Source of the DNA: Hericium rajendrae | Lineage: Eukaryota; Basidiomycota; Agaricomycetes; Russulales; Hericiaceae | Length of the DNA stretch: 64,000 bases | Direction of reading: 5' to 3' | Assembly (NCBI GenBank): GCA_033439255.1 | Contig: CM065884.1 | Location: 3,038,001 to 3,102,000 of the forward strand | Shown: piece after piece, positions 6,723 to 60,809 of the stretch | How the letters are laid out: every line of letters starts with the position of its first letter | Numbering within the stretch: position 1 is the first letter of the stretch | The notes under the pieces: generated by a model | Database searches by the model: none | What the model saw: the letters and a program-made list of their open reading frames with translations, nothing else | What the model was told of the DNA's origin: nothing | Position numbers and translations under genes: made by a program

Positions 6723-9700
6723 ATGGCTCCTAAACTACGCAGCGCATCTCGAGCTACCTCCATCTCGAACGCTCCGGAGCCGTCGTCGAACAATGATGCC
6801 ACGCCTTCCCTCGCCCCGGCTCCCGAGGCTGCCACCGTCAACAACCTCGGCGTCCCCAATACGTCTGGAGTATCCGTCATCGTATCCGCTACCGGTAGCA
6901 CTCCCGTTCAGAATCCTCAGACCGTCACGACCAATCCCGTTCTTCCCGCGAACGGCTCCCCATTGGCTCGGGACTCTCCCCTCACCTCGAAGCCAGCGAG
7001 ACGTCTCGATTGCCTTCTCAGATGCCTGAACGGGAAGCCGCAGATGGATGGGTCGTGCCTCCTGCCGTGTCCGCTCGCGCGGTGCGGATCTATGAGCGTT
7101 ACAGGAACTCCCAAGTGGATCAAGTTCCCCTAGCTCAGTTCATACTCGAGTTTGCCTTCGACAGATACGACCCTGGTCTGATCATCGACCGAGGACGGCA
7201 ACTCGACGACACTCCCCGCTACCAAATCACTTTCATTTCCAAAGCCGCTATGAACTCCTTGTTAGCGCAGATACAATTCTTCGTTTCGGGACTCTTCGAC
7301 CTCCTCCCCGAAGTTCTCAAAGACGGCCGAGCCGTATATGAAGTCGACGCGGACGGCCAATTACGGCGAGCCTTAGAAGGCGCGGGCTCGGCCAGTGAAC
7401 TTTTCCTTACCTGGCAGATGCTCGGCTTTCGCCTCCAACAGGGCGTACGATTCGTGGACAAGTACTTCCTCGAGCTCACGACGAATGATCGCTCCGACTC
7501 GCCCGTTTCTACTACCCTTTCCGAGATCCAAGACCGCGAAGACGCCGTCACGCGGTCGGAATACTTGAAACGCATGTACTTCTCAGACGCGGCGCGTGTA
7601 CATCTCCCGCAGGGAAGATTGGACCTCTTACAGCAAGACCCTTCCCGGTCCCTGCGGGAAGTACTCCCTGTTCCTCCAGAAATACGGGAGCTCGATCGTC
7701 CCGGCCAAACTTCATTCACGACCGCGACGGATTCAGAAGATCATGTCTCCCGTCAGTTGGACGTTTCCGCCAGTGCCCGTACTGAGAGGCCTTCAAGCTT
7801 TAATAGGAGTCATACGTATCCGGACGTTATCTCCAGGAGTTTGAGGGATGCTCTCGCTCCTGAGAGAAGTCCGTTCGACCAGGATCGTACGCACCGCCCG
7901 CAGTCAGTAGACCCGGCGGCATACACTGCGCAGAGAGAAGACCGTCCCCAACCTGGCCCAGCGCGCCCCCGATACTCTAACGTGCTCGAAGGTCTAGGGC
8001 AATCCTCGCTCATTCCCGGAGCGGATGCGCCGCCTTCAGTTCCTATGCCTCCGCCCTTGGCTTCCCGCCTGCCTCCCGCGTTCTCGAACAGGCCGGCTAT
8101 CGCTTTCAACGCCAATATAACCAGGCAATGGGGTGGAGCAGGGACATCGTCTGCCCGCCCTAACGATCCCTCGCGAGGCTTCGACTTCAACGCGGCGGAA
8201 GCTGCTACGTTGGGGCGTTCTCCGCATCCAGGACCGTTTGAGCCGGCTTCCTTTCGAGTCGACCCTACGTCGCAAGGGTTCGAAGGTCTTTCTTCTTTCG
8301 TCGACCAAACCGCACCCAACGGCGACGCTACCAAAAGGAGCTCTAACTCTAGCCGCCAAGGACGGCACCCATGGGATGGAAGAGCAGGGGGGCCTCCCGA
8401 TGGGCCTCCCGGGGGTTTTCCCCATGGAGGTGGAGGAGGACCGCCAGGCGGTGGACCCCCCGGAGGATTCCCTCCTCCGGGTCCTCCTGGTCCTCCCGCT
8501 GGGTACCCACCTGCGGGTCCTCCTGGTGGCTTTCCAGGCGGGTTTCCCGGAGGCGTCCCGGGCGGCCCTCCAGGCGGTCCTCCAGGCGTTCCTCCCGTCG
8601 GCCCTCCAGGCGGCCATCCCGGTGGCTTCCCAGGCGGTCCTCCCGGCGGCTTCCCAGGCGGTCCTCCCGGCGGAGGACCAGGTCCTCCCGGGATTCCAGC
8701 CGGTGTTCCACATCCACCTGCCAATGATCAGAGAGGACCTAGGATCAAAGAGGATCTACGGCCCGACGATTTGCCCTCCTGGGACGGAGAATCTAGGACC
8801 GCGATACGCTACTTCACCGAAGTGCAGCAATATGCGGATATGGGGGGAACGCTGCCCGAGACTATGGGGCGTTGGCTATGGAAGCGACTACCCGCTGACT
8901 CTGGCGTGCGCATCTGGTACACGTTGCTATCCCCCGTATTCAAGCAATACATGACGTCGCACTACTTGAATTGGCTTCAAGGTCTCAAGACGCTCTGGCT
9001 CGGAGATCGATGGATTCTCGAAAGACAAATCGAGTTTTCGGAGATGCATTTCCGCCAGAAATACCATGAAAACGAGCGTCCCATGGACTTCATCACTCGA
9101 CGCCTCACTTACGCCCGCATGCTATCGGAAGCCGAGCTCGGAGGTCATGCAGAAGTCCGCCTCGTGCTACGTGCTGCCATCCCCGAATGGCATAATATCC
9201 TGTATATGTCGACCATACCCGACGTCGCAGAGTTGATGCAACGTGTACGACTCAACGAAGTGCAACTCATCGTCGCCCATAGAGCCCGCTCGTCCCATTC
9301 CGCGGTTCTAACCAAGGAGGACGTGACCGCTCTCATCGATCGACAACTACGCGGACGTCGTGACAATGCCTCGGGCGGACATACGGATGGTACTACAGGA
9401 CGTCGCCCATTCTTTCATAAAAAGAATCGCGCCGCTGCTCAGTTATCGGCGGCCAATGCAGCCGATAGCGAAGCATTCCAGGTCTTCCGCGAACCCGTCT
9501 CCGACGAGGAGTCCGTCTCCGATTCTGGGCGCGAGGATGCCTCCGCTGGTTTCGAGACACAGGAAGCTTTTGCAGCAGTACAGAAGCGCCAAAGGCCCCC
9601 GCCCAAAGGCGGGTACCCCTTTCCAAAAGCAGACCACGTCAAATCCCCGCGCAGGCCTCCCCCTTCACCCTGCCGAGCTTGCGGCAGCGCGAATCATTGG

Positions 9701-12700
9701 GATAAGGAGTGTCCGCACTGGGTCTTCTACGACGCGCGTAAAACGGCTAATATGATGCAGGGCTACGAAGATACCTTACGTTCTGTCGCCGACGAAGATG
9801 TATATACCAAATCATTTGCGGCTTTAGTTTCCGAATCTATTCATTCCGCCTATGTTGACGAACCCGCCGTAGAGGCGGATCTAAGCAGAATTCCGATGGT
9901 TTCCCCGGACGTCCCGTCGCGGAATGTTTTCTTCATACGCAAACCGACCGTAGAGGACGTCGAGGACGTCCATTATCTCGATGAGCTGCGCCAAGACCGA
10001 CCGCCTCCTGGGGTACTAATGGAGGAAGTCGAACCCGGAGTACGCACTGCCGTCAAGATCACTAAGAAACGTCTTTCGCTTCCTGGCCAAGCCGCTGCGG
10101 GTATCTCTGTCCTTTCCATGCCAGGCCACATCTTGTCTCCGAAGGGTCCGCTGATGAACCTCCGCCTCGACTCTTGCGCGGATATCACGCTTCTTTCCGA
10201 AGAGGCTTACCGCTCGCTCCCAGGCGCTCCGCCTTTGCGTAGCGGAATGAAATTGAAACTCCTGCAGGTCACCTCTAAGGATGCTCAACTGTTGGGCTAT
10301 GTACACCTCCCCGTTTACGTGGATGCCACCAACGGGGAGGCCCTCCAACTCGATATCGAAGCATATGTCGTTTCCGGCATGACCGTACCGATCTTGCTCG
10401 GGGAAGACTTCCATCAAATCTTCGAAGTCGGAGTCGTTAGGGACAACATCGAAGGTACCACCATTAACTTCAAAGACACGCCATATACCGTCCGCACGGA
10501 ACCCGTCGAACCCTCTCGGGACCGCCACCTCGTCAAGCGCATTCGGGGCGCCCCTATGGCTTGTTTTATTCGGGCTAAGTCTCATCAACGCGCACAGGCA
10601 CGTCGCCGGGCGCGCCGTAAGAAGTTTGGGGGCGATCAGCGGCTTGTCAGGGTCCTCACGGACACGCGCATCCCTCCGTCCACAGTGAAGCAAATACCTG
10701 TCGAAGCTCCGTTTATCGATGACCGCACCTGGTTGATCGAGAAAACGGTTGTTGTTAACTCCGAAGATCCCGTCTTCGCGGTACCAAACACTTTGCTAAC
10801 TCGGGAGCACGCTTTTATTCCCATCGCGAATACTTCTCCCCATCCGAAGTACCTTCGTCGAGGGGACGTCGTTGGGCAGCTAGTCGATCCGTCTGACTAC
10901 CTCGATACCCCTACGAATCGCGACCACTTAGCTCGTCTCATGGACCAAGCAGAGAAGACAAGGATCCTCGTGGAAGTACAGATGGCCGCTGGAAGCCGGC
11001 CGCCCTCTGAACCACCTCCACCGGATCCTTCACCTGCTGCATCCGTCCAAATGTCCGCACCTCCGGGGGAGGCGCAGATGGCCGCTGGAAGCCAGCAGCC
11101 CTCTGTGCCGCCTCCATCCGATCCTCCGACCGACGAACCTTGGGGTCCCAAGACTGCAGAAGCCCCTGATCCGGCCGTCTACCCATCCAACCAAATGCGC
11201 GACCTGCTCGATGTCGGCCAGCTCCCTCCTCATCTCCATGACAAAGCTTGGGAGATGCTCACCCGCCGACAACGCGCGTTTGGATTCGACGGCCGTCTCG
11301 GTCAACATCCGGCTCGCGTCCACATCCGCACGGTAGATGGGCAGGTACCCATAGCTGTGCCTATGTACGGCGCCTCCCCAGCTAAACGCGCGGTTATGGA
11401 CGACCAGCTCGATAAATGGTTCGAGTTGGGCGTCATCGAACCTTCTCGAAGCCCTTGGAGCGCGCCAGTAGTCATTGTCTACCGCAACAACAAGCCTCGC
11501 TTCTGCGTCGACTACCGGAAGCTCAATGCGGTCACTATCCCCGACGAGTTTCCGATACCTCGTCAATCCGAGATCTTGGCTTCGCTCTCTGGCGCTCAAG
11601 TGCTGTCTTCCCTCGATGCCCTATCTGGTTTCACACAGCTCGAAATGGCGCCCGAGGATGTCGAGAAGACGGCCTTCCGCACGCACCGCGGTTTACATCA
11701 GTTCAAGCGCATGCCTTTCGGCCTTCGGAACGGGCCATCTATCTTTCAACGGGTCATGCAGGGCATTCTTGCCCCTTACTTATGGTTATTTTGTCTCGTC
11801 TACATCGATGACATCGTCGTTTATTCTAAAACCCACGAGGAGCACATCGACCATTTAGATAAGGTCTTGGGAGCCATCGAGGAGGCCGGGCTCACCCTCA
11901 GTCCCTCCAAGTGTCATATGTTCTACAGTTCCATTATCTTGCTCGGCCATAAAGTGTCCCGCTTGGGTCTGTCGACTCACAAGTCCAAGGTCGAGAAGAT
12001 TCTACAGATGGCACGCCCTACGAAAGTCGCTGATTTACGCATGTTCCTTGGGATGGCCGTGTATTTCTCTGCTTTCCTTCCCCATTATGCTAGTATCGCA
12101 ACGCCTCTCTTCCAATTGACTCGGAAGGGCGTCCGTTGGGCTTGGGGGGCCGTGGAGGAGGAAGCTTTCTCTGCGGTTAAACAAGCTCTGGCCTCTGCTC
12201 CGGTCTTGGGTCATCCTATACAAGGTTTACCTTATCGTCTCTATACCGACGCCTCTGGAGATGGTCTTGGCTGTACCCTGCAGCAAGTCCAGGATGTTCG
12301 CATTGCGGACCTCCGCGGCACCCGGGCCTACGACCGCCTCCGCAAAGCTTTTCAGGAGGCAAGTCCGTGCCGAAGCTTACGGTTTCCCTTTCTTCTACGC
12401 TCAATGACACTACGCGTCCCCCGCCTTGGGGGGCTTCTCTCGATGACACTGTGGTTCAAGTCGAACGCGTGATTGCTTACTGGAGTCGTACCTTCAAACC
12501 AGCCGAACGTAACTACTCTGCAACCGAACGAGAGGCGCTCGCCGCAAAGGAAGGTTTAGTGCGATTCCAGCCTTTCATTGAAGGCGAGAAGGTACTTCTC
12601 GTTACCGATCATGCCGCGCTCCAATGGGCGCGCACGTACGAGAATAACAACCGCCGTCTCGCCGCGTGGGGCACCATCTTCTCGGCCTATCAACCGCATC

Positions 12701-14655
12701 TTGAAATCATCCATCGGCCCGGACGCGTGCACTCCAATGTCGACCCGTTGTCGCGCCTTCTTCAGCACATTCCTCCGTACGATGCGCCGCTCGACGACGC
12801 TGCCCCGTCTTTGCAGACCAATCACGCAGTAGCGGAGACCGCTGAGGACCTCGCGGTACACGCTCCCGCCGAACGCATGACGGCCTTCTGTGTTACGGCC
12901 ATGGATGAGGTGGTGGAGGCTATCGCCCCATCCTGCTTCGTCGCACAGACTCGTCGTAAGTACCGCGCCGCGCAACGCCGGACCGAGGGGGGCTCTGCAG
13001 CGGATCCGTCATCAGTAGAGGCGAATGCCCCCACTGTCTCGATCGAATCCCCTACAACGGCTTCCCCTTTGTTAGATCCTTACGAGGCCCAGTCAAAATG
13101 GGAATCGGATCACGCTCCTCCCTCCATTCATGTCCATATCGACCCGGAATATCGAGTCCGTTTCGTGACAGGTTATAAGTCGGACCGAGCGTTTCGCTCT
13201 AAGTGGTCAGAGCTGGAAGCTGGCTCTGGCTCTTGGAACGCGGGCGAGAGGTACTTCAAAGATGACCAGGGACTTCTCTTCTTTCGAAATGCAGATTTCC
13301 AGCCGCGTCTCTGCGTCCCCCATACGGAACGCATTAGCTTATTGATTCAAAGCCACGAATCACCCTTTGAATCTGCGCATGCCGGACCAGAGAAGCTGTG
13401 GCTACTTCTCAGCGGGAAGTTTTTCTGGCCGACTATGAAAAAGGACGTCCTCACTTTCTGCTCGACGTGTGACGTATGCCAAAAGATCAAACCGCCCAAC
13501 TTTTCAAAGTTTGGGAAGTTGCTGCCGAATCCCATCCCAAGTCGCCCTTACGAGTCTATTTCTATGGATTTCGTCACGGGCTTACCATGGTCGGACGAGT
13601 TTAATGCCGTTTTAGTATTCGTAGACCGAATGTCTAAACACGTTCAATTCATCCCTACCACCACGGGCTTGAACTCGGACGGCTTCGCGCGCCTTTTTGT
13701 CAAACACGTCGCTTGTCGCTTCGGCCTGCCGGATAGCATCATCACCGACCGTGATCCTCGGTGGACCTCTGACTTCTGGAAAGGCATTTCCAAGTATCTT
13801 AAGACGAAGATGTCGTTATCCTCGTCGCATCACCCGCAACATGACGGTCAAACAGAGATTGTTAACCAGAAGCTCGAAATTATGCTCCGCGCTTACGTCG
13901 CAAACGACAAATCCTCATGGTCCTCGTGGCTCCACTTGCTGGAACACGCGTACAATTCGACTCCCCATTCTTCAACAGGGGCCTCGCCTTATCTCGTTTT
14001 ATACGGATTCATTCCGAAAGGAACTATGGACTTTCTCTCCCCAGCTCAGTCCGAATCCGTCGCTCCTCCACAGTCCGCTCTCCTCTCCGGGGATGTTCGC
14101 TCCTTTCTCGAGATATTCCATCTTCACCGCGAGAGCGCCCGTACCGCGGTCGCTCGTGCGCAAGTCAAACAAGCAGATTCATACAATAAGAACCGTCGGC
14201 TCCTAGATCTGAAGCCCGGTGATTTAGTGCTAGTCAATCCTCACTCGCTTGAATGGATCGAGTCCAAAGGGGAGTTCTCTAAATTAACTCAACGGGCCAT
14301 CGGACCATTTGCCATCCAAGAACGCCTTAATCCGAATGTGTACCGCCTGGACATGACCGACAAATACCCTGGGTCAAACGTGTTCAACGTCCAACACCTC
14401 AAGCGATACCACGCCTCTTCCGAGATCCAGGAAGGCCGCGCGCACTTACCCGAGACGCGCCTCCACAAGCCGGCCAGCGAGGAATACCAAGTCGAGAAGA
14501 TAGTCGGCCACCGCTTCGACAAGCGGCGCCGCCAGATGCTATATCTCGTCCGTTGGGAAGGTTATTCTCCCCAATTCGACTTGTGGCTCACGGCGCGCGA
14601 CTTGCGCAATGCCCCGCGCCGTTTATTCGCTTATCGACAGATCCACAAGATTTAA
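6723..14655 (+). mobile_element. Gag-Pol region of the 12.4-kb Gypsy element
   Basis: Domains read in order: Gag from about 6.7 kb with a collagen-like Gly/Pro-rich segment (8.37-8.71 kb, repeated GPPGG) followed by the Gag helical part (FTEVQQYADMGG, LKTLWLGDRW); a CCHC zinc knuckle near 9.68 kb (CRACGSANHWDKEC); aspartic protease near 10.16 kb (LRLDSCADITLL); reverse transcriptase 11.3-12.1 kb (FCVDYRKLNAVTIPDEFPIP, YIDDIVVYS); RNase H 12.2-12.75 kb; integrase 13.3-14.1 kb (zinc-binding HHCC part, then SMDFVTGLP and ITDRDPRW core); and a C-terminal chromodomain near 14.5-14.65 kb (YLVRWEGYSPQFDLWL). The order RT, RNase H, integrase is that of Ty3/Gypsy; the chromodomain marks a chromovirus. 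Confidence 0.88.
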
Positions 14656-17962: not shown

Positions 17963-18542
17963 TGTGACGCGGGACCCTAGTGACCCCAGGACGCACCGCG
18001 ACGCGAACGACGCGTCGCAACGGTCCGGGGCACCGGGGTCACGTGCAGGATAGTCAAGCTAGACTCGTCTTGGTACTATACAGTAGCGAACCTTAAATAT
18101 TCTCATGTACTTAACCGACGGCCCTCGCAGAGGACGGCGGTATCAATCTACACACTCTCACTTTTGCTCAATCTATTTCTCGTGCGCTTTGCTCTCATAT
18201 CTTCTTATCGCGCGTTCGTTCGCTCGTCTTAGACGCGAGCTCCGACTACTCGTTAAGGAATCGGAAGTGCGCCCACAGAAGCAAACACGCACAACGTGTT
18301 GCCTTCGCAGGGTCTTCCTTCCTCTTTCTCTTCAGTTCAACGTTCCACAGCGCCGAGACTTGAGGGAAGCTCTCGAGTCTCCCGCTACTAGCTCGTCTCC
18401 CTTATTCCGTTGAGGCAGGGAAGCTCTCCCCAACGGAACGAGGCGCCAGTCGTACGACTCCTGGGCCGACTTACACCATTGTCACACTCTCCACTCGCCA
18501 GACTCCTTGAAAGGATTCCGCGCCCTTGGACTAAGCGTCACA
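17963..18542 (+). repeat. 3' LTR of the 12.4-kb Gypsy element
   Basis: 580 bases, apparently identical to the 5' LTR. The purine-containing run just upstream (ACTGGGGGGCTT at 17951-17962) is a candidate polypurine tract. It is followed by the AGGTG duplication and the KDZ coding island. Confidence 0.93.
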
Positions 18543-18547
18543 AGGTG

Positions 18548-18817
18548 CAGGGCTGATAACGTGATGACTGTCCGGGGCCGATCAACAGTAGCAGAAAACC
18601 ATCGGGCACACAGAAGCTGCACGATTGGAAGCGACGAGCCCAAGATATCGCAGCCGCAGTAGTTAATTGCGACTTCATGAAATCCTGTGACATCCATGAC
18701 CGTCAATGTCTCCTCGCGTGGACGCGGATGTGGGCAACCTCGTCCATCGTGGCCCAACTGGATGCGCAGGCCAGCCTCCTGTAGCGTATATTTACTAAAG
18801 AGGCCGTTGCACCAGAT
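18548..18817 (-). CDS. KDZ gene, middle piece between two insertions
   Basis: This 270-base island continues exon 2 of the KDZ gene after the interrupted intron. It reads WCNGLFSKYTLQEAGLRIQL, then GHDGRGCPHPRP, TVMDVTGFHEVAINYCGC and LLCARWFSATVDRPRT. It ends LSALHL, where the Gypsy element inserted after the CACCT target (minus strand). It is bounded on the right by the acceptor TAG of the interrupted intron (18818-18820) and on the left by the 3' copy of the Gypsy target duplication (18543-18547). Confidence 0.85.
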
Positions 18818-18823
18818 CTACCA

Positions 18824-20040
18824 CATCAGTAAACATCAAATTTACTGACTTGTCTGAGATTTGTCTGAAATGTATCTAATTTTATCTAATTTTATCTAAA
18901 TTTAGGTTGTCAGATAGTCAGACAATCCTACGAGTGTCTATCGTCCAGATACTATCAGATACTTTCAGATAAACTGTTCTGATGTCAGAAAAAAGTCTGA
19001 CTATCAGATCAGAAGTCTGACATCAGAAAAATCTCTAATATTAGACTAAAGTCTGATTATCAGATCAGAAGTCTGATATTAGACAAATCTCTAACATCAG
19101 ACTAAACTCTGATCATCAGAAATTTGTCTGACATCAGATTTCTAATCTAATAGTCAGACTTTAGTCTAATGTTAGATTTTGAAACTGATAGTCAGACATA
19201 TTCTGACATCAGATATTTGTCTGATGTCAGATTTATCCATCTAATTTCAGAAAATTGTCTGACTATCAGATTGTAGTCTGATTATCAGACATACTCTGAC
19301 TTCAGAATAGAATCTAATGTCAGTCATTTTCAGTAAGTCAGATAGAGTCTATGATTATTTACAAGCAAGCTTCAATAGCTTAGAGTTGTTAAAGTGCAAG
19401 TCTATATTGATATTTAATATGATTGAAGTACCATTAGATCAATCAGACATCTCAGAACTTTGCAAGATAAAAAATCAGATAAGATCAGACTTATTACAGT
19501 CAGTTCAGATATATTTCATGTTATATCAGATACAAGTTAGTTATATTTTCAGAATAGTCAGAAGTGATTTCAGACTCTTCAAAAGCACTTTCAGCTCAAA
19601 ATTAGATCTCTCAGACTAATATTCAGACACCCAGAATCACACCAAAATGTCAAAACCACTGCACTCTAAAATTATACAGGTAGATCAACTAAAACGCCCA
19701 ATGCAACACAAACCCAAAAAAGTAGGCCATAGATAAAAGTAAATTAACAGTAAAGTAAATCATTAAGATCATTAAAAGAGTCAGATGTATCAGCAGAGCT
19801 AAATCAGGAGTTAGCTCAGAACAATCAGACAAAATTAGATACACTTACATAAAATCAAGAAGCTTCAGATTCTATTCAGAAAAAAGAGTTAAGAGTCAGC
19901 TCAGAACAAAAATCAAACAAATTAGACAAACTCAGACAAAATCCAAAGAGTCAGGTCCTACATAAGATTAAGTCAGAATAAACTCAGATAAAAAATTGAA
20001 ACACAAACTAGGAGAATTTTCAATTTAATCTCTAAAAAGC
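18824..20040. repeat. Left subterminal TCAGA/TCTGA-rich DNA of the Plavaka-type element
   Basis: About 1.2 kb of AT-rich DNA in which the pentamers TCAGA and TCTGA occur every 10-20 bases in both orientations, most densely at 18840-19320. No gene is supported. Dense short motifs near the ends are typical binding arrays for transposases of large DNA transposons; here that function is inferred from position and from the matching right end. Confidence 0.65.
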
Positions 20041-20045
20041 TCAAG

Positions 20046-23000
20046 TCAGATCATTATGCAGACAGAGAGTAGAAACACAAACTCTTCATCTGCACTCATA
20101 TAGTCTAAGAGTGCTGTTCTTCTAAGGCTACTAGCATCTGGTACCTGAGACTCAATCCCAGGTAGCCTTTTGCCCCTGAAAGAGCTAACCTCTAGAACAA
20201 GCTCCATGATACCTTCCCACTTCTTATCAGAAAGCTCATTAATGGCCTTCATATAGTGCATGCAAGCTGCACCCCAGTTACGAGAGCTGAACTTCCTACC
20301 AGGAAGATCTCTAAGATGAAGAGGAAGCTCTGGAGTAGGTAAGATCCTGAACAAAGCACGTTCAACCTACACAAAGTCAGCAACAACAATTAAAAAAATT
20401 TAGAAGAACTTACAGCCACCACAGCCAGGCAAAGAGCAGCCTTAGGCCAGCCTTTCTGCATGAAACCAGCAGGAATCTGAGAGATAGAAGAATTATGGGC
20501 ATATGCAAGAGTCTTGATAATCATGGAGTTCCTGAACATGCCAGAAACACTCTGCAAAATTTATTAGCAAAAGAAACAGAGAAAACAAAGAACATACTGA
20601 GCCTCCACCCTCCTTTAGCTCAAAGTCAAGGAAGATAAATGGATAGGATCCACTATCCTCAGCATCATCATCCTCAGCACGAGTGGGAGTCTCCCACTCC
20701 TGTCCAAGGTGAAAGCGTGCAGCAGCAAGGATACGATTCGGCTCATGCTTCTCATGCTTCTCGAAGGTCAGATTGGTGACCCAGTGGTCTGGCAGATAGT
20801 CGCGCACAACATGGATAGCCGTCTTACCAAAATGCTTTCGCCAGTCGTATGTGCGCTGCAAAACCTGCCAAAGAAATGATTATCAAAAATAAGAAACAAA
20901 AGACAGCAACTCACCAGATGATAAGCACGATCCTTTTTATGATATTGATGAGGGTCGTCAGGAAAGCACCTGTCGTACAATTCTTGCACAAGATCAACCA
21001 TCTTGGGAATGTTGAAGGGATCTGGAAATGTGCCACACATGTCACGCCAAAGCGGAATGAAAAAATCATTCCACTGTGGCAGTGGCACGGGTGCATCATC
21101 ATTGGTGCCACTACGGCGGCGACTAGATGTCGACTGGCCGTCGACATCCGTCGTGCCGTCCGAAGAGTCCTACAATTAATTCAGTAACATACGAGAATGA
21201 AATAAGTAGATACGCACTGAGTCATCCTCTGTTGTGCCAGAAGGAGTACGACTCTAACAGAACAAAAGAATATAAGCTAATAACAATAATCGACAAAATT
21301 TGATACTTTACCATGTTTCTTAGAGTCTTCGAGCCCGATGATGCATGGCGCGAGGCAGAGGGAGTCTTCACAGGAGTTTTGCTTATAGAGGAGATCTTCG
21401 CAGGAGTCTTGGGCGCAGAGGAAGACTTCGCAGGAGTCTTGGGCGCAGAGGAAGACTTCGCAGGAGTCTTGGGCACAGAGGAAGACTTTGCAGAAGTCTT
21501 GAGTGCAGATCGAGGAGGCCTAGGGGTAGTAGGGGGATCCAAAGGTGCAGTCTGCACCTCAGCGCGCGGGGCAATAGCATCCTCAAACATATGAGCAATC
21601 CTCGCATGCACATTCTCCTCAGGCTCAATATCGCTGCTCTCGACTTGCTGCGCAACGAGGCTCCCTTGCGCGGTGTCGACGGGGACTTCGTCATTGTCCT
21701 CGGGCTCTGTGTTGCTGCCTTCGCCTTGTGCGGTATCGATGGGGATGTCCTCGTCGTCCTCGGGCTCGGTGTCACTGCCCTCGACTTGCCGCGAAATGAT
21801 GGTGCCCACTCGCACGGTGTCGACGGGGATGTCCTCGTCATCCTCAGGCTCGGTGTCGCTGCCCTCGTCTTGCCGCATACTGACGATGCCCCCTCGCATG
21901 GTGGGGACGTCCTCGTCGTCCTCGGGCTCGGTGTCACTGCCCTTGTCTTGCCGCATAACGGTGATGCCCCCGCGCACGGTGTCGACGGGGATGTCCTCGT
22001 TGTCCTCGGGCTTGGTGTCGCTGCCCTTGTCTTGCCGCGAAATGACGCCCCCTTGCACGGTGTCGACGGGGACTTCTTCATCGTCCTCGGGCTCGGTGTC
22101 GCTGCCCTTGTCTTGCCGCATAACGGTGATGCCCACTCGCACGGTGTCGACGGGGATGTCCTCGTCATCCTCAGGCTCGGTGTCGCTCCCTTCGACTTGC
22201 TGTGTAACGTGGTCTCTCTGTGCGGTGCCGATGGGGACTTCCTCGTCGTCCTCAGGTTCGGTGTCACTACCTTCAGCTTGCGGCGGATCGGAATCTGGGC
22301 GAGCATTGTGCACACGAGCCTCCTGCTCAGTCTCCACCTCTATCATGCTAGGAGCAGGGCGGCGGGGCTGAATCACGTAGATCGAGTGAATAGAACAGTT
22401 AGTGATGTAGTATTGTACGAAAAGACTTGAAACCCACCTTAGGTGTCGTACTCTGTTTCTTGCTGGAGCTTGATCCTTTTGTGATAGTGGGAAGAGGTGG
22501 CTGCACCTGCAAGGATACATATTTACAATAGATGTTAGTGCGCACACATAGGAAATAACAAAATTACATACTTGAAGCTTCCCTGCCCCTCGAGTAGGAT
22601 TACCGTGAGTTAGCTTCGTCGTCGAACGAGGGAGCGTCGAGGACTTGGAGTTGGAGGCCGATGCCTTCGACGTGCTGGACGTGCTGGCAGTTGGCACCTT
22701 CGACGTGCTGGCACCCGATACCTTGGTGATAATTTTGACGGGTGGAGGTGGAAGGACACGCTAAATCACACAAATTGTTAGCACATGGACAGGAGATACC
22801 ACAAACAACGACGTACCTTCGATTTCGCAGCCCCTCGCACAGAGGCTGCTTCGAGCTCGTCATCCTCGTCATCCTCGAAAGCCCCCGCCTCTGCATCCTT
22901 GCGTCCACGGCCAGCGCGTTTCGTCGAGGAAGGCTGCGTTGACTTGCCGGAGGTCGAGATCTTCGACTTGGAGCTGCCTGGCAGCGTGTCGCGCCATTCC

Positions 23001-24670
23001 GGCCGTATTCCGCGGGGTCTGTTGAATAGAAAATTAGTAACCGAACCCAACATGATAGAAGAGGAATCAAGATATCGAGTGAACGCGAGAGGCGAAAGAT
23101 GAGGAGCACGAACGAAACGTGCAGAGCAGAAACGAATGAGGTGAGTGTTAAGGTGAGCGCCATCAACGATCAATGAGCGCTCGTACAACGAGCGCCCATC
23201 CGTCGAAAACTTAGAGGTAAACATTGCACAACTTACTCTTCGCTGAAGCTTACTCGTTTGATCAGCTTCCCCTTCCCCTTCGCATTTGTCTTTGCTCTGG
23301 CCTCTTCGCTGCCCACTTCGAACCTCGTGTTATCCTCCGACCCGTCTCCTGACTCAATTCCGACATCCGCAACGTTCGTTTTTTCGAATCGGGGCCCACT
23401 TTTGCGAAGTTTGGAAGTCGACTTGCGCGAACGATCGGTGCGATCGGTGCGATCGTCTTGAGAGGAGCTGCAGGGCATCATCAGAAGGTATGTTTATGAT
23501 TCTTTCGAACTTGATGATGATTACTGACCTTGATCGGCATCCATCGCATCCTCGACTCTCGCTCCTCGTCGGCCTCGCTTGACACCACTCCCTATATCTC
23601 CCACCTGCCTCTCGGCACCCTCATCGTCTCCCATCCCCTCGCCAACATCCAATGCGGACTTGCGCCATTTACGACCATCCTGCAGAGTTGCGGGGCCATC
23701 CTCCCCATCTGTTTCCCCCTCCGTTTGCGCGCGCTTCGGGGCCATCTTGCCCTTGGACTTGGAGGACACCGGTATCACAACTTCGGCCCGGCCTTGCGAG
23801 CTGTTGCAAGCCCGGCCTCTCTGCTGGGGGGATCTAGCTGGTGCTGTTTGATAACGGCATTAGGTGAGTGCAACATTATGATGATATATAATTATTGAAC
23901 TGACCATTGGCTGCTCGTATATCACCAACGTCATTGGTGGTGTCAGCATCGGCCTCCTTCACTGTGTTATCGCGCCCTTTCACCCCGCTACCTCGTCTGT
24001 TCGACTTAGCAGGCTGCGAGGTTGCTGTCGAGCCTGTTGAGCCCATTCCCTTGCTTCCGACTCCCCTCTCCTTGTCTGTCTCGCCCTCGGTGCAGAGACG
24101 TTTCAGGGCTTTCCTCGAGCTTGTGGGGACCGAGATTACCACCTCGGCACGACGTCGAGACGTTATTGAGGGTTCTGTAGCAGCGTAGGGCAATCAACAA
24201 GTGAGTAAATCTTCGAAGCAAGAATGAATGTATGCTGTACTCACCTTCTGTGTCCTCAGGTATCTCGACCTCCTCCTGATGACGTCTAGGTGTCTTTCGA
24301 CCCTTGGACTTCGTCGTCGAAGTGTCTGGTTTGCGTACATAATCGAATAGTTGAGTAAGCTAATACACAAAGACTAGTGCATGTGCTCACCTTCTGTGTC
24401 CATAGGTATCTCGGCATCGGTGGGACCGTTGTCAACGTCACCACGTCGACGTTTCGATCCGGCAGACTGCGACTGGGAGGTCTCGTGCGCACTCTGTGAC
24501 TTACGAGTAAGTACAGCCGCGTCGTGGGCTGCTTTCTCCGTAGCTTCATCGGCCATCTGCTCTTCAGCAGTACGCCGTCTCTTCTTTCCGTACTCTGCAA
24601 AAGTCGGACAGTCTCGGTGAGTGTTCGTATCATCTCCTTGAGCCGTTGACTTACGAATCTTGGGTGGCAT
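20046..24670 (-). CDS. Multi-exon cargo gene: repeat-rich N-terminus, DUF6532-like C-terminus
   Basis: The gene starts with ATGCCACCCAAGATTC at 24670 and runs through a dozen or so exons with short GT-AG introns to the stop at 20046. The N-terminal half is basic and polar (YGKKRRRTAEEQMADEATEK), with several exons echoing each other: RRRAEVVISVPTSSRKALKR, GRAEVVIPVSSKSKGKMAPK, and endings such as IPMDTEG and IPEDTEG. A large middle exon has about eight acidic repeats of about 33 residues (GSDTEPEDDEEVPVDT), then SAPKTPAKS decamers. The C-terminal 300 residues look folded (LPQWNDFFIPLWRDMCGTFP, YDWRKHFGKTAIHVVRDYL, WPKAALCLAVVAVERALF, FSSRNWGAACMHYMKAINEL) and resemble from memory the DUF6532 family of agaricomycetes; tentative. 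I saw no in-frame stop in the exons traced, unlike the neighbouring transposase. Its location inside the transposon suggests element-borne cargo. Confidence 0.6.
21385..22290. repeat. Coding tandem repeats in the cargo gene
   Basis: Two arrays lie in one exon. 21690-22290: about seven or eight units near 100 bases encoding an acidic GSDTEPEDDED/E-(V/I)PVDT repeat, with units differing mainly at the linker. 21395-21520: about four 30-base units encoding SAPKTPAKS. Both keep the frame, so length variation would change protein length but not reading. Confidence 0.75.
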
Positions 24671-25474
24671 TGATGCAGTAGACAAGAGCAAGGAGGTAAA
24701 GCGAGGGAATAGAAACGGTATCAGGACACCAGTGAGGACAAGCAAGACAAGTGGAACGAGACTTGTCGTCTCACCACAACACAGCTCTCACGTGAGTCCT
24801 CGGCTCTCACCTCCGGCGCCGCCTCTCCGTCTTCGCGAGCTGCACAAGCATTGCCTTCAATATATTCTACCTCTGCCGTCTCGCATCTCATCAATATCAT
24901 CTTCGCGTTATCCTCTGGACCTTGTATTCTTGATATCAATCCCCTACACTCTTGTGCCTGCCCTCTTGCTGTGTTTCTATTCTTTCGCGTGTTCGCTGCC
25001 TCATTATTTGTCCACTTTCTCATTCCGAGTCTCCTCAAGCTACAGCCTTCAACCGATATCACTTGCTAGCACTTGTGTGTCTCTACGTGTTGCTCATACA
25101 CTCTAGTCTGTTCTGTTTCGGGTTGACATTATCTTCCTGCCCGCTTCACAATCCTTGGTGTAGGACAAACTCTCACTTTGAACCTTGCATTACACTTGTG
25201 TACTACGTGATCTTTGGTGACCCTGTGTCTTGATATCTCTTGAGTCTGCACACTGCTCATTAGCTCTCCAAGTCTTTTGGCTCTGTGTTAGACCTTTGCA
25301 CATATCATATACTTTCTGCAAAAATTGTGCAGCTTCAAGCTTAATTGATTTTTGATTTTTACTGCTTTGTGACTTGAAACACTGTGGCATTATTCTGTGC
25401 ATTTGGGCTACATCTAAAGAAACATCTTTCAGTGATAACTATATTTAAAGACAGTGATCTCATTGGTTGCACAG
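24671..25474. promoter_or_regulatory. Divergent intergenic region inside the Plavaka-type element
   Basis: 804 bases separate the starts of the cargo gene (left) and the transposase (right). It is pyrimidine-rich on the plus strand near 24850-25060 and must hold both promoters if the genes are transcribed. I recognise no specific operator. Confidence 0.4.
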
Positions 25475-28400
25475 ATGGCACCTCCGAGACGAAAACTCTA
25501 TAAACCTCACACATATTTCTGTCCAAAACCTATGGGTTCTAGGTGTCGAAATGGATTTATAAGTGCTGGTGGCTTGGCTTGGCATATAGATGCAGTACAT
25601 CCAGACTTGCACAGAGATGAAATTTTGGCAGAGCCTTATCTTCCAGCTTTAGCTCCACCTCGAGCTCCAACTCATGCGCTATCTCCAGAACAGCCAGATA
25701 TATTTTATGCTGATCCACATTATGGTGAAAGCAATAATGGAGAAAATTTAGAGGCACAACATGGTACTAAAAATATAGTGCATCCAGATCTGAATGGGAG
25801 ACCATGTGATGATGCTGGCAATTATCTTGATGATGATGCAGCTCCACAGCTAGAGAATATTTCTGATTCAAATGACTGGTCTCCATTTCGAAATCGAGTT
25901 GAGTTTGAGACTGCAGATTTATTGTTTCGAGAGATGCCAGTCTCTGAGAAAAAATTCAATCGTCTCATGGGACTCTGGGCAAAGACAACTAATGCAAATC
26001 CATATGCAAATAAAGATGACCTTCATGCAGTGCTTGACTCAATTAAACATGGAGATGCTGAATGGCTATGTTTCTCAGTAAAATATAAGGGCAAGCGACC
26101 TAGAGATTCACCTCTATGGATGTCAAAAGAATTCGAAGTCTGGTATAGAAATCCACGCACAGTTCTGCATAACCAGCTAAAAAATCCTGACTTTGCTGGA
26201 GAATTTGATTATGCTCCAAGACGAGACTTTAAAGAAAATGATGAACGACAATGGACAGACTTTATGACTGGAGATTGGTCATGGAATCAGGCTGATACAA
26301 TTGTGGCTGAAGATCCAGCAAATAAAGGAGCTATGTTAGTGCCAGTAATCTTAGGCAGTGACAAGACTGTTGCTTCTGTTGCTACAGGACATACTGAATT
26401 TTGGCCACTATATATATCACCTGGAAATGTGCATAATAATGTTCGTCGAGCTCATTGAAATGCTGTAAGCATCTTAGGATTCTTGTCTTTAGGACAAACA
26501 GATAGACAATATCAAAATAGTGCACCTTTTTGTAAATTTCGTAGGCATTTGATACAACAATCTTTACACACAATTCTTGAGCATTTGCGTCCTAGCATGA
26601 CTACTCCAGAGATTGTTCGCTGTCCTGATGGACATCTTCGTCGTGCAATTTATAGTCTTGGACCTTATATTGGAGATTATCCAGAACAAGTATTGATATC
26701 ATGTATTGTTTCAAAATGGTGTCCAAAATGCTTGGCTCAACCAAAAGATCTAGATAGTGATGGAGAGACTTGAAGTCACACACATACAGAATCTTTGATA
26801 AATAAAGGTACTAAGAAAGGAATACTATGGGATGACTATGGTATAGTTCCTGATATTATGGTGAGTTTTATAAACTATAACAAAAATTTGACTTGTTCTA
26901 ATTCTGATCTTCTTAGCCATTCACATATTATTTTCCTCGGGCTGATATTCATGAGCTTATTATATTTGACCTTTTGCACCAAGTGATCAAAGGTGTTTTC
27001 AAAGATCACATAGTGGCTTGGGTTGAAGATTATCTGATCAAAGAACATGGACCAAGTCGTGCTACTACAATTATGGCAGATATTGATAGGAGAATTGCTG
27101 CTGCTCCTTCATTTCCAGAGTTGCATCGATTTCCTGATGGACGTAATTTTCAGCAGTGGACTGGTGATGACTCTAAAGCTTTAATGAAAGTGTGGCTGCC
27201 TGCCATTCAAGGACATGTTCCAGATCAGATGATTTGAGCTCTTGCTGCATTTTTGGAGTTTTGCTATCTTGCACGAAGATCTGTTATTGATGAGACCACA
27301 CTAAGTGCTATGGAAGCTGCACTTGAAGAATTTCATAAAGAACGAGTCATTTTTAAGGATGTTGAAGTTCGTGAAGGATTTTCTTTGCCTAAACAGCATG
27401 CTCTGATGCATTATGTTGAACTTATTCGACTGTTTGGTGTGCCAAATGGACTTTGCACATCTATAACTGAGGCCAAACATATTAAAGCAGTAAAAGAGCC
27501 ATGGCGACGTTCTAGCCGATTTGATGCACTTAGTCAAATGCTGCTCACAAATCAGAGACTTGATAAATTGGCTGCAGCCAAAAATGACTTTATTGCTCGT
27601 GGCATGCTTGATTTACCTTTGGATGCTGTTGATATCAAATATGACTCTGACTCAAATGACTCTAAATCTGAATCCTCATCAGACTCTGAAGATGAGATTG
27701 AATTTGATGATGAAGATGAAGATAAGGAGAACACTGCAAGGGCCACTAAACATCATATAGATGGAGCACCAGCTCATAATGTGCCAGAGTATATGGCAAG
27801 TGTTTCTTTAGCCAAAACACGAGCATCCAACTATCCTCGACAACTTCATCTGCTTGAGACTTATCTTGATTATCCTGAGTTATCTGAGATGATTCAGCGA
27901 TTTTTATATGATCAACTTCATCCTGATCATTCATCTGCAGTTGTAGATGAGTCTAAACTGCCTCGTGCTCCATACAAAGTTGATATATTTCACTTTGCCA
28001 TTGCTGTATATCGTTCTCCCAGTGATTTATCAGGACTCACAAATATGCACCGTCATCGTATTCGCTCTACACCTGAATGGAGACATGGACCTGCACGTCG
28101 AGATTGTGTCTTTGTTGAAAATGATTCAGAGTTGCCAGGAATGCAAGGACTTTATGTGGGACGAGTTCTGATGTTTTTTTCATTTGTGCACAATACAGTT
28201 ACATATCCTTGTGCATATATAGAGTGGTTTATTACTGTTGGAGATGCACCAGATCCTAATACTAAAATGTGGGTTGTAGAGCGAGAAGTTGATGAAGATG
28301 GAAAGAATGTTCGCTCAGTGATTCATACTGACACAATTTTACGAGGAGCTCACTTAATGCCTATTTTTGGAGAAGAGTTTCTTCCTTCTGACTTTGAATA

Positions 28401-28479
28401 TACTTATTCCTTAGATGCCTTTTATACATACTATGTAAACAAGTTCTCTGATCACCATGCCAATGAAATAGCCTTCTAA
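25475..28479 (+). pseudogene. Plavaka transposase, three in-frame TGA stops
   Basis: Translation starts MAPPRRKLYKPHTYFCPKP at 25475. A degenerate zinc finger (C..C and H....H near residues 14-40) is followed by family landmarks HPDLNGRPCDDAGNYL, NDWSPFRNRVEFETADLLF, FDYAPRRDFKEND, ILGSDKTVASVATGHTEFWP and ISPGNVHNNVRRAH. One 56-base intron (26861-26916) joins GIVPDIM to PFTYYFPRADIHELIIFDLL, then HQVIKGVFKDH, LPKQHALMHYVELIRLFG and TEAKHIKAVKEPWRRSSR, an acidic stretch (SDSNDSKSESSSDSEDE), and a C-terminal domain ending DHHANEIAF. Frame is kept throughout, but TGA stands at 26456-26458, 26771-26773 and 27235-27237, each where I recall arginine. There are no frameshifts, so inactivation looks like point decay only. 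The DNA is AT-rich and CpG-poor relative to the Gypsy element. Confidence 0.85.
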
Positions 28480-28960
28480 TTTATTTAGATTTCTTTTAAA
28501 TTGTATGACAATAGGTAAATGATAAAGTTGTACTAATTACTACTATTTTATATTAATAGTGGCTTGAAGTCAAATGATTCTATAAGTTCAAAAAAATTAT
28601 TTTTACCTTGTTCAATTATATAATAGTTATACTCAATTGATGAAGCTAGCTGTTTAAAGATCTCTGTATCTCAAGTTATCTAAGATTATGTTTAATATGT
28701 CTGACTTTTGTCTGACAATCATGATTTATCTAATTATGTCTGAAATGTTACAGTTTTCTGATACATGATTTGATGTCTGATAGTAATACAAAGGTCTGAC
28801 TAATATTGAAAGGTCTGACTAAACTGATTTGAGTCTGAATAATGACTAATTGTATCTGAACAATAGATATTAGTCTGACTTGATCTAACAAAATCAATGT
28901 TTCTGACTTTTTATATAATGTCTAATATAATTTAAAAGTTCTGATCTATATATAATCTCT
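28480..28960. other. AT-rich spacer after the Plavaka gene
   Basis: 3' flank of the transposase leading into the right subterminal region. TCTGA motifs become frequent from about 28690. No gene is seen. Confidence 0.45.
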
Positions 28961-28969
28961 GAAGTGTCT

Positions 28970-29735
28970 GATGATATCTGATGATAAATACTTATAGGAT
29001 TTTTATCTGACTTTTGTAATATATCTGACTTTTTATATGTAGGCTGATGATATCTCTTATATCTGATAGAGCTCAAATGTCTGAAATGTCTGACTATATC
29101 TGGATGATAGACACTCATAGGATCTTTGTCTAACTTTTGTGATATATCTGACTTTTTATATGTAGGCTGATAATATCTCTTATATCTGACAGAGCTTAAA
29201 AGTCTGAGAGGTCTGACTGTGTCTGGATGATAGACACTCGTAGGATCTTTGTCTAACTTTTGTAATAAATCTGACTTTTTATATGCAGACTGATAATATC
29301 TCTTATATCTGACAGAGCTCAAAAGTCTGAGAGATCTGAATGATAGACACTCGTAGGATCTTTGTCTAACTTTTGTAATAAATCTAACTTTTTATATGTA
29401 GGCTGATAATATCTCTTATATCTGACAGAGCTCAAAAGTCTGAGAGGTCTGACTGTGTCTGGACGATAGACACTCGTAGGATCTTTGTCTGACTTTTGTA
29501 ATATATCTAACTTTTTATATGTAGGCTGATGACATCTCTTATATCTGATAGAGCTCAAATGTCTGAAATATCTGACTGTGTCTGGATGATAGATACTCGT
29601 AGGATCTTTGTCTAACTTTTGTAATAAATCTGACTTTTTATATGTAGACTGATAATATCTCTTATATCTGACAGAGCTCAAAAGTCTGAGAGGTCTGACT
29701 GTGTCTGGATGATAGACACTCATAGGATCTTGTCT
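28970..29735. repeat. 123-base satellite in the right subterminal region
   Basis: About six head-to-tail units. The landmark TGACT recurs at 29091, 29214, 29450, 29573 and 29696, giving spacings of 123, 236 (one unit is 10 bases short), 123 and 123. Each unit contains several TCTGA motifs. On the minus strand 123 bases equal 41 codons, and the array stays open as repeats of YKRYYQPTYKKSDLLQKLDK, so two frames of 142 codons appear; the length multiple of three may be chance. Confidence 0.85.
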
Positions 29736-30036
29736 GAAAAGTAACATTTTTTTGAAAGATTTGTCTGAAAAATGTCAAATTTTCTGAAAATATATCCAAT
29801 CTCTGATAAAATTATCAATGTCTGAATATATTTCAAGATCTGATAGCTCTGACAGCATCTGAAGCACATCTGAAAGTGAAAAGTATCTACTCATCATTTT
29901 ATGCATATTTTGGTCCAGACAATTGAAAAAATTCAGATAAATCAGATTGTCAGACAAGTTAGTAAATATGGCTTTTGCTGATGCATCCACGCTGTCAGTC
30001 AAATGCCATATCGATGATGTAGAGCACGTTACTTAC

Positions 30037-60586: not shown

Positions 60587-60809
60587 CATCAGTAAACTTG
60601 ACCATTTTTCTGAATGGCTGAAAGTGGTCTGAATGGGTCTGAATGAGTCTGAACTTCATCTGAAACCTAAAAAATAATCTGAATGGTCTGATTTTAAATC
60701 TGAATTTATCTGAATTCTAATAAATCAGATTATATTCAGACAGTCAGACTCATTCAGACCCATTCAGACCACTTTCAGCCATCCAGAAAAATGGTCAAGT
60801 TTACTGATG
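60587..60809. mobile_element. 223-base MITE with CATCAG ends, family 2
   Basis: Long inverted repeats of about 65 bases starting CATCAGTAAACTTGACCATT, with only a few mismatches, and a TG duplication at 60585-60586 and 60810-60811. The interior is TCTGA/TCAGA-rich, like the subterminal DNA of the 11.2-kb Plavaka-type element. Confidence 0.85.

Follow-up and report, generated by a model that had tools for sequence, protein, structure and literature searches.

PlavakaB belongs to a known family of mushroom transposons, and the main text of its description (Kojima 2025, PMC12730594) defines it by termini of the form CATCA..TGATG and target-site duplications (TSDs) of 2-3 bp; it names TET/JBP as an extra gene and mentions no DUF6532-type partner. 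The same study proposes that transposon TET/JBP genes aid escape from methylation-based silencing. Second proteins encoded beside the transposase are described for two plant systems. The maize En/Spm (CACTA) element combines a transposase with a second protein (TnpA/TnpD) and carries repeated subterminal motifs; according to PMC2613891, both the motifs and the second protein vary between elements, and TnpA arises by alternative splicing of one transcription unit. Arabidopsis VANDAL elements likewise encode a second protein, VANC, alongside fast-changing noncoding tandem motifs, and PMC10398659 describes a demonstrated anti-silencing activity.

Here we analyse a locus within a 64,000-nucleotide stretch of DNA from Hericium rajendrae (the window, in which position 1 is the first letter). 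The locus resembles PlavakaB in its CATCA..TGATG ends, 2-bp duplication and Plavaka transposase, but it carries a second gene, hereafter the partner, and no detected TET/JBP gene. This partner is a separate, divergently transcribed gene, unlike TnpA, and an anti-silencing role, demonstrated for VANC, would here be conjectural. We favour, with moderate confidence, the reading that the locus is a complete CACTA/EnSpm-related PlavakaB transposon to which both genes belong, and that the partner most likely reads the subterminal arrays and aids excision, counters silencing, or both. All genomic evidence comes from a single genome.

Termini, insertion site and related copies

The locus, at C7:3056824-3067983, is a genuine and complete transposon, delimited as follows.

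18482..18817, minus strand: CxC2 cysteine cluster, KDZ-transposase-associated, the insertion-site sequence interrupted by the element (PF18803, E 3e-25)
18822..18823: TSD CA, left copy (flank comparison; single CA in the empty site)
18824..29983, plus strand (set by the transposase): complete PlavakaB-type element, 11,160 bp (terminal inverted repeats, TSD, paralogous empty site, PF18759)
18824..18857: left terminal inverted repeat (inverted arms, end matches)
29950..29983: right terminal inverted repeat (inverted arms, end matches)
29984..29985: TSD CA, right copy (flank comparison)

The element lies between flanks reading ...CTAC-CA / CATCAG ... CTGATG / CA-TCCACG, and a paralogous empty site (C2:2828434-2829014) is 98% identical to the joined flanks over 581 bp and holds one CA. 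Aligning the ends, as the earlier note had suggested, gives arms of 34 nt that are 82% complementary, and the note's description of an 11.2-kb Plavaka element with inverted CATCAG ends and a CA duplication is borne out. Assignment to PlavakaB rests on the 5'-CATCA..TGATG-3' termini, the TSD of 2 bp (within the published 2 or 3 bp) and the Plavaka transposase domain (PF18759, E 2.8e-55 for the first piece). Insertion was probably fairly recent, because the empty site is 98% identical and a close sister copy exists; the element now appears inactivated.

The same ends recur elsewhere. An initial genome census found the pattern CATCAG-N6-CTGATG at 3 places. With at most 3 mismatches, the last 28 bp of the right end matched 12 places and the 34-bp left-end pattern 14, against 0 for a reversed-pattern control, and this outcome of the genome search that the note had proposed favours an element. 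The 2-bp flanks agree in 11 of 12 genomic end pairs, where about 0.75 would be expected at 1 in 16.

Subterminal arrays

Inside both termini lie noncoding regions rich in short repeated motifs.

18858..20045: left subterminal region (motif count; tandem arrays at 18985-19307)
28480..29949: right subterminal region (motif count)
28958..29735: tandem array with a 123-bp unit, 6.4 copies (repeat detection)

On the plus strand, the left end (18824-19640) has 33 TCAGA and 14 TCTGA, and the right end (28480-29983) has 48 TCTGA and 3 TCAGA. The total of 98 in both ends (2,111 bp) compares with a mean of 4.2 and a maximum of 11 in mononucleotide shuffles, so that the TCTGA-rich ends reported in the note are upheld. 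Dinucleotide shuffles are likewise exceeded, with 47 motifs in the left 817 bp (mean 9.5, maximum 16) and 51 in the right 1,504 bp (mean 13.1, maximum 22). A block of 26-40 nt occurs at six places of the right-hand tandem array and has an inverted counterpart at 18925-18964.

Comparison with other elements drew on 41 of the 66 right-end places. A nested element of another subfamily, with the same CATCAG..CTGATG ends, has 3 TCTGA/TCAGA (shuffle mean 1.6) and instead 23 CATAG/CTATG (mean 1.5). The arrays persist in gene-less copies: a 223-bp MITE with CATCAG..CTGATG-type ends retains 14 motifs, in reversed orientation, with TCTGA in its left half where the large element has mostly TCAGA. Four large gene-less copies were also seen, whose longest reading frames look repetitive in the parts of the 4 loci inspected.

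Two divergent genes

20046..24670, minus strand: partner gene, a 15-exon conceptual model of 1,212 codons (splice model)
20046..21169, minus strand: partner exons 12-15, conserved C-terminal domain (PF20149, E 7.3e-4 and 1.4e-3, below the cut-off)
21355..22280, minus strand: tandem repeats within the partner's coding sequence, some with 30-bp units and some with units of 81-84 bp, the latter encoding acidic GSDTEPEDDED-like repeats (repeat detection)
24671..25474: divergent intergenic region, 804 bp, between transposase and partner (gene models)
25475..28479, plus strand: gene for the Plavaka transposase, containing three premature stops and an intron at 26861-26916 (PF18759, gene model)

The transposase is recognised by PF18759 on three of its four pieces (E 2.8e-55, 8.7e-35 and 8.8e-14), confirming the family named in the earlier note, and the translation shows a WCPKC stretch. 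The note's divergent multi-exon gene of more than 4 kb corresponds to the partner model, running from 24670 to 20046, and the region between the two genes probably holds both promoters.

The partner's C-terminal domain aligns with positions 38-162 of the 194 in the DUF6532 profile (PF20149). This copy scores 19.9 and 19.0 bits against a curated cut-off of 24, and the domain therefore appears, from its sequence, to be a distant relative of DUF6532, on a distant branch, rather than a filed member. In an alignment of 9 of the 17 extracted sequences, 6 of the 9 match PF20149 (E up to 1, best 8.9e-5), and profile-profile comparison with DUF6532 gives E 6e-4, though with a probability of 28%. Protein-database searches yielded no relatives at E 0.001, either among 1,327 candidates for the C-terminal part of the partner or among 230 candidates for a canonical DUF6532 domain. 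Structure prediction based on exon pieces aligned in 29 rows gave a mean pLDDT of 45 and was unusable; in a profile search of solved structures the best candidate, mL87 (E 0.04), was taken as a chance match.

Pairing of transposase and partner across the genome

We counted a partner locus as paired where the nearest transposase within 15 kb was an upstream, divergent Plavaka transposase. This holds at 39 of the 52 loci of the partner C-terminal domain family and at 11 of the 17 canonical DUF6532 loci, giving 50 of 69 combined, on 48 distinct transposase places. At the other 19 of 69 partner places the nearest transposase is not upstream and divergent, and no partner was detected for 33 of the 81 transposase places. 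The second gene is thus a standing partner that travels with the Plavaka family at many sites in the genome, and in the literature searched no report linking DUF6532 to Plavaka was found. The note had called a complete element of this kind little described, which holds only in part: the ends and TSDs of PlavakaB are already published in PMC12730594.

Nested repeats do occur in this genome, that inside the sister copy among them, and two unrelated repeats might have been juxtaposed or nested by chance. Across 1,000 random placements, which used rounded approximate lengths for contigs C1, C6, C8 and C14, uniform placement gave a mean of 1.5 pairings (maximum 7) and local shifts a mean of 3.8 (maximum 12) against the 50 of 69 seen, and several copies at different sites enclose both genes between the same ends. 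Random placement leads us to reject chance neighbourhood, to which we attach almost no credence.

Divergence, constraint and the sister copy

Partner and transposase diverge together (Mantel r 0.81, p 1e-4, 13 pairs, leaving aside a fourteenth, L104 with L056, of canonical DUF6532). Between neighbouring subfamilies the partner is far the faster, at 0.41 against 0.13 for the transposase. The C-terminal domain of the partner is under purifying constraint, with dN/dS of 0.19 against C13:51661 and 0.24 against C11:1982516 (transposase 0.21 and 0.21); the poorly aligned N-terminal part was left out of these estimates.

A different picture is given by the sister copy, which itself contains a nested 3,380-bp element. 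Differences between the two copies comprise 107 transitions among 108, 77 of them in CpG context. The synonymous and nonsynonymous comparison proposed in the note gives, from few changes, a dN/dS of 0.61 in the partner and of 0.50 in the transposase, with no sign of selection on either gene since the split. The partner also differs from its sister by one 9-bp repeat unit and by a 1-bp indel near 23.46 kb that alters the reading frame.

These data bear on the earlier note's suggestion of a cargo gene that is retained for its own sake while the transposase decays, which would make the divergent gene a capture from the host. In this copy the transposase does have three premature stops (one in the sister) and the partner none, but the indel near 23.46 kb, where the partner model stays open only through a non-consensus acceptor at the start of exon 6, means that an open cargo and a decayed transposase make no clean contrast. 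The sister's partner has two stops, and per base the partner differs from its sister more than the transposase does (1.61% against 0.60%). Changed CpG sites are equally frequent in both genes, at 63 of 609 (10.3%) in the partner and 10 of 96 (10.4%) in the transposase. Together with co-divergence and the 39 of 52 family places paired with Plavaka transposases, this equality leads us to reject a passenger gene, which we regard as very improbable; the note's interpretation as a whole is partly supported.

It is rather unlikely, if far more plausible than cargo, that the partner is an element protein serving as transposase cofactor, in assembly, nuclear import or chromatin tethering, while the transposase itself binds the arrays. 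Pairing and co-divergence fit such a cofactor equally well, and no recognisable DNA-binding domain or fold was found among the partner pieces scanned. Against it stand the partner's much faster divergence and the array motifs that differ between two subfamilies, both of which are more readily accounted for by a partner that follows the arrays.

A putative role for the partner

Our preferred reading, an array-reading partner, would operate as follows. The transposase would cut at the CATCAG...CTGATG ends, leaving the 2-bp target duplication, and the divergent gene would supply the element's partner, with its fast-changing, largely repetitive N-terminal part and constrained C-terminal domain. 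This protein may recognise the subfamily-specific subterminal arrays (TCTGA/TCAGA in this element), and once bound could help excision and/or lift methylation-type silencing. By analogy, the partner is most likely an accessory protein acting on the arrays in the manner of TnpA or VANC; unlike that of TnpA, its array binding is putative. Several observations count against this reading: no DNA-binding fold emerged, the MITE carries its motifs in the orientation opposite to the large element, some transposase and partner places are unpaired, the DUF6532 score of this copy falls below the cut-off, and neither gene shows selection since the split from the sister. VANDAL transposases are of the MULE type, unlike Plavaka.

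Such a standing partner gene alters the notion of an autonomous Plavaka element, gives DUF6532, an uncharacterised fungal Pfam family, a likely home, and adds a fungal example in which subfamily-specific arrays accompany a transposon protein that changes fast.

Somewhat less probable again than the cofactor is that the partner is mainly a VANC-like anti-silencing factor, in one lineage beside a TET/JBP dioxygenase, the transposase sufficing for excision. At 6 loci transposase and DUF6532 are separated by a TET/JBP domain, which is upstream of DUF6532 and on its strand, and both the CpG-biased change and the silencing-escape proposal of Kojima 2025 (PMC12730594) accord with this; per-CpG change is equal in partner and transposase, and therefore no protection is evident here. 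The 46 listed TET/JBP (PF12851) places include none inside this element.

More broadly, and only tentatively, DUF6532 and its relatives might be the second genes of Plavaka elements in general, acting as sequence-specific array readers that counter DNA methylation, mostly alone and elsewhere together with a TET/JBP dioxygenase, to which they may even be fused. If so, solitary DUF6532 genes of mushrooms would be remnants or domesticated copies of a system by which transposons counter silencing. A DNA methylase domain occurs at 5 places in the genome.

Boundaries, insertion site and related copies

The window contains a complete element at 18824-29983, a member of the published Plavaka family, and the coordinates proposed for it in an earlier note proved exact, with CATCAG starting at 18824 and CTGATG ending at 29983. 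Its terminal arms are 34 nt long, 82% complementary and bracketed by two copies of CA. The left flank codes for a CxC2 cysteine cluster, which is associated with KDZ transposases (PF18803, E 3e-25); KDZ, CxC2 and Plavaka sequences together point to a mushroom-forming fungus as the likely host. Joined 300-base flanks matched C2:2828434-2829014 (C numbers denote contigs of the same genome) at 98% identity across query positions 20-600, and the junction there holds a single CA. This is a paralogous empty site, and the insertion boundary and 2-bp duplication are thus shown directly.

At up to 3 mismatches the genome holds 14 matches to the left-end 34-mer and 12 to the right-end 28-mer, the reversed controls giving 0 in each case. 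The same note had proposed a search for other copies with CATCAG...CTGATG ends and both genes. In all, 12 left and right ends could be paired, the right end of the pair at C7:2279514 coming from a separate right-end similarity search and not from a 28-mer match. The 2-bp flanks match in 11 of the 12 pairs (9/10 in one set and 2/2 in the other), the sole exception being C13:51661-62865, with TT/CA. Two left ends (C9:1869710 and C7:2686129) and one right end (C10:3214) are unpaired. Three pairs spanning 22-24 kb probably contain nested insertions, and four pairs of 4.4-9.3 kb enclose no transposase or partner place and look like gene-less copies that have retained their ends and arrays.

End pairs without either gene
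C3:1573232-1577740
C3:1578572-1585420
C7:2283955-2279514
C7:2945928-2955250

A recurrent partner of the Plavaka transposase

Genome searches, which give lower bounds, returned 54 places for exon 12 of the divergent second gene (52 once merged) and 132 for the Plavaka transposase profile PF18759 (81 once merged). At 39 of the 52 places the closest transposase is a divergent one situated upstream at a distance of up to 15 kb, with a gap of 3.6-5.2 kb in 31 of the 39; the gene previously read as cargo, perhaps kept for its own sake, is therefore a recurrent partner of the transposase. The spliced C-terminal domain of the partner resembles Pfam DUF6532 (PF20149; E 7.3e-4, 19.9 bits, below the cut-off of 24), to which 6 of 9 aligned partner sequences match (best E 8.9e-5), and because of this resemblance the pairing test was extended to PF20149 itself. 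That profile found 27 places (17 once merged), 11 of the 17 having an upstream divergent Plavaka transposase, and the transposases concerned differ from those of the partner family, 37 being used by the latter and 48 by both sets.

When both sets are combined, 50 of 69 places are paired with an upstream divergent Plavaka transposase. The other 19 comprise 0 with an upstream transposase on the same strand, 3 downstream divergent, 4 downstream on the same strand and 12 without a transposase within 15 kb. Random placement, for which the sizes of four contigs were guesses, was run 1,000 times in each of two ways: uniform positions gave a maximum of 7 pairings, and positions shifted locally by 20-150 kb a maximum of 12. 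Conversely, a partner of either kind accompanies 48 of 81 transposase places, and the absence of a detected partner at the other 33 is put down to loss, to divergence or to the limits of the search. The PF20149 matches at C6:3139825, C8:1883034, C18:244145, C3:1613032 and C11:2021223 have no Plavaka transposase closer than 15 kb, and are possibly relics or tamed copies.

The link between DUF6532 and Plavaka is new relative to the Plavaka and DUF6532 literature searched. Within that literature, one paper, on Ganoderma, names DUF6532/PF20149, and the passage covered does no more than include the two domains in a single list given for two species; the parts covered of the main text of Kojima 2025 (PMC12730594) describe no Plavaka partner.

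Co-divergence, constraint and decay

For partners of the window's type, both genes were compared in 13 pairs: partner and transposase distances are correlated (Mantel r 0.81, p 1e-4), with faster divergence in the partner (for instance 0.41 versus 0.13 between the window subfamily and the next). Against the copies at C13:51661 and C11:1982516, Nei-Gojobori dN/dS for the window copy is 0.19 and 0.24 in the last four partner exons, and 0.21 and 0.21 in the transposase; at this distance the constraint on both genes is similar. Against the sister copy, a much closer one (C3:1360932-1375345; 98.6% identity over the first 8.1 kb), the values are 0.61 for the partner and 0.50 for the transposase and rest on few changes, which offer no indication that either gene has been under selection after the split.

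Genes of the window element
20046-24670, minus strand: partner, conceptual 15-exon model, 1,212 codons
25475-28479, plus strand: transposase, PF18759 matched by 3/4 pieces

The transposase carries 3 premature stops in the window copy, 1 in the sister copy and 2 in the copy at C13:111855-133792, every one a C-to-T change at CpG when judged against at least one other copy. For C13:51661-62865 and C11:1982516-1993177 the comparison covered 2,842 of 2,949 bases and found no premature stops; hence stop-free transposase copies exist, as regards the compared part. In the partner of the window copy, a 1-bp indel, present in addition to a 9-bp unit, forces a non-consensus exon 6 acceptor, and so the gene may well be frameshifted; under the same model the consensus acceptor works in the sister copy, which has two premature stops.

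Window and sister copies show 108 differences in 11,022 aligned bases, of which 107 are transitions, 77 of these in CpG context. The share of differing bases is 1.61% in the partner gene, which is rich in CpG, and 0.60% in the transposase gene; among CpG positions in either copy the proportions are 63/609 (10.3%) and 10/96 (10.4%). The contrast drawn earlier between an open cargo and a decayed transposase is not a clean one, the seemingly preserved partner changing per CpG as fast as the seemingly dead transposase. Either a RIP-like process or the deamination of CpG sites that carry methylation would fit the pattern. A DNA methylase domain occurs at 5 places in the genome. Composition is sharply split within the element: GC and CpG observed/expected are 0.52 and 0.94 in the partner gene and 0.39 and 0.41 in the transposase, with CpG observed/expected of 0.10-0.15 in the subterminal regions. 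For other partners, the surroundings of the last exons (19 loci) average GC 0.43 and CpG 0.51, values nearer those of the transposase.

Subterminal arrays and a proposed role for the partner

The TCTGA-rich ends reported in the earlier note are borne out: TCTGA/TCAGA reaches 47 occurrences within 817 bp at the left and 51 within 1,504 bp at the right, both far exceeding dinucleotide shuffles, against 5 inside the 4,625-bp partner gene. On the plus strand TCAGA outnumbers TCTGA 33:14 on the left, and TCTGA outnumbers TCAGA 48:3 on the right. A 3,380-bp CATCAG...CTGATG element with TT/TT flanks (C3:1368993-1372372), which has inserted into the sister's transposase intron, is instead rich at its ends in CATAG/CTATG (23 versus a shuffle mean of 1.5; TCTGA/TCAGA, 3 versus 1.6), and the array motif therefore differs between these two subfamilies. 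Joint descent predicts that right-end similarity should track partner identity. A divergent transposase lies up to 12.5 kb upstream of 41 partner places; when these were compared with 41 of the 66 right-end places, similarity to the right end of the window element was found at 6/10 places with at least 50% partner identity and at 2/31 below 50%; of the four misses in the former class at least one, the sister copy, is owed to its nested insert.

The window also holds a short element with Plavaka-type ends, of which the genome has 12 more near-complete copies (identity at least 85%). Its motifs run in the reverse orientation to those of the large element.

60587-60809: foldback MITE, 223 bp, Plavaka-type ends CATCAGTAAAC...GTTTACTGATG, TG/TG flanks, 14 TCTGA/TCAGA motifs, fold z -20

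Plavaka transposases are similar to those of EnSpm (PMC12730594). In maize En/Spm, TnpA binds subterminal repeats and transposition needs both TnpA and TnpD (PMC2613891); activation of Spm by TnpA correlates with demethylation, and in VANDAL elements the rapidly evolving tandem motifs of noncoding DNA are bound by VANC proteins, which bring about a loss of silent marks (PMC10398659). The present anatomy is parallel: each end carries arrays whose motif varies from one subfamily to another, the transposase is conserved, the partner evolves faster and has a constrained C-terminal domain, and gene-less copies keep their arrays. Because of this parallel, the partner would act on the subterminal arrays as an accessory and/or anti-silencing protein; to the observed anatomy, pairing, co-divergence and constraint of the two-gene element we thus add, by analogy, an inferred binding of the arrays by the partner and its effect. 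Structure prediction gave no usable fold for the partner (mean pLDDT 45).

TET/JBP domains and other features

The TET/JBP profile PF12851 matched 46 genome places, 7 of them no more than 15 kb from a Plavaka transposase and none within the window element. Six of the 7 have a divergent transposase on one side and a PF20149 partner on the other, share the strand of that partner and precede it by 1.74-4.55 kb; these matches are weak (27.5-30.2 bits, below the Pfam cut-off of 34.9), and TET/JBP and DUF6532 possibly belong to one fused protein.

Loci in the order transposase, TET/JBP, DUF6532 (the latter two on the same strand)
C2:26562-36474
C2:3859035-3868945
C4:1120802-1130715
C9:547408-558385
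C4:343940-357661
C14:65071-75348

TET-bearing PlavakaB elements have been reported from Agaricus bisporus and Gymnopus confluens (PMC12730594), and the six loci recall that arrangement, but here a DUF6532 gene is added beside the TET domain.

Other reading frames lie in the window.

6899-14655: LTR-retrotransposon reading frames (RT, RNase H, integrase, chromodomain)
47876-50431, plus strand: LINE-type endonuclease-RT frame
57027-58706, minus strand: gag-like frame
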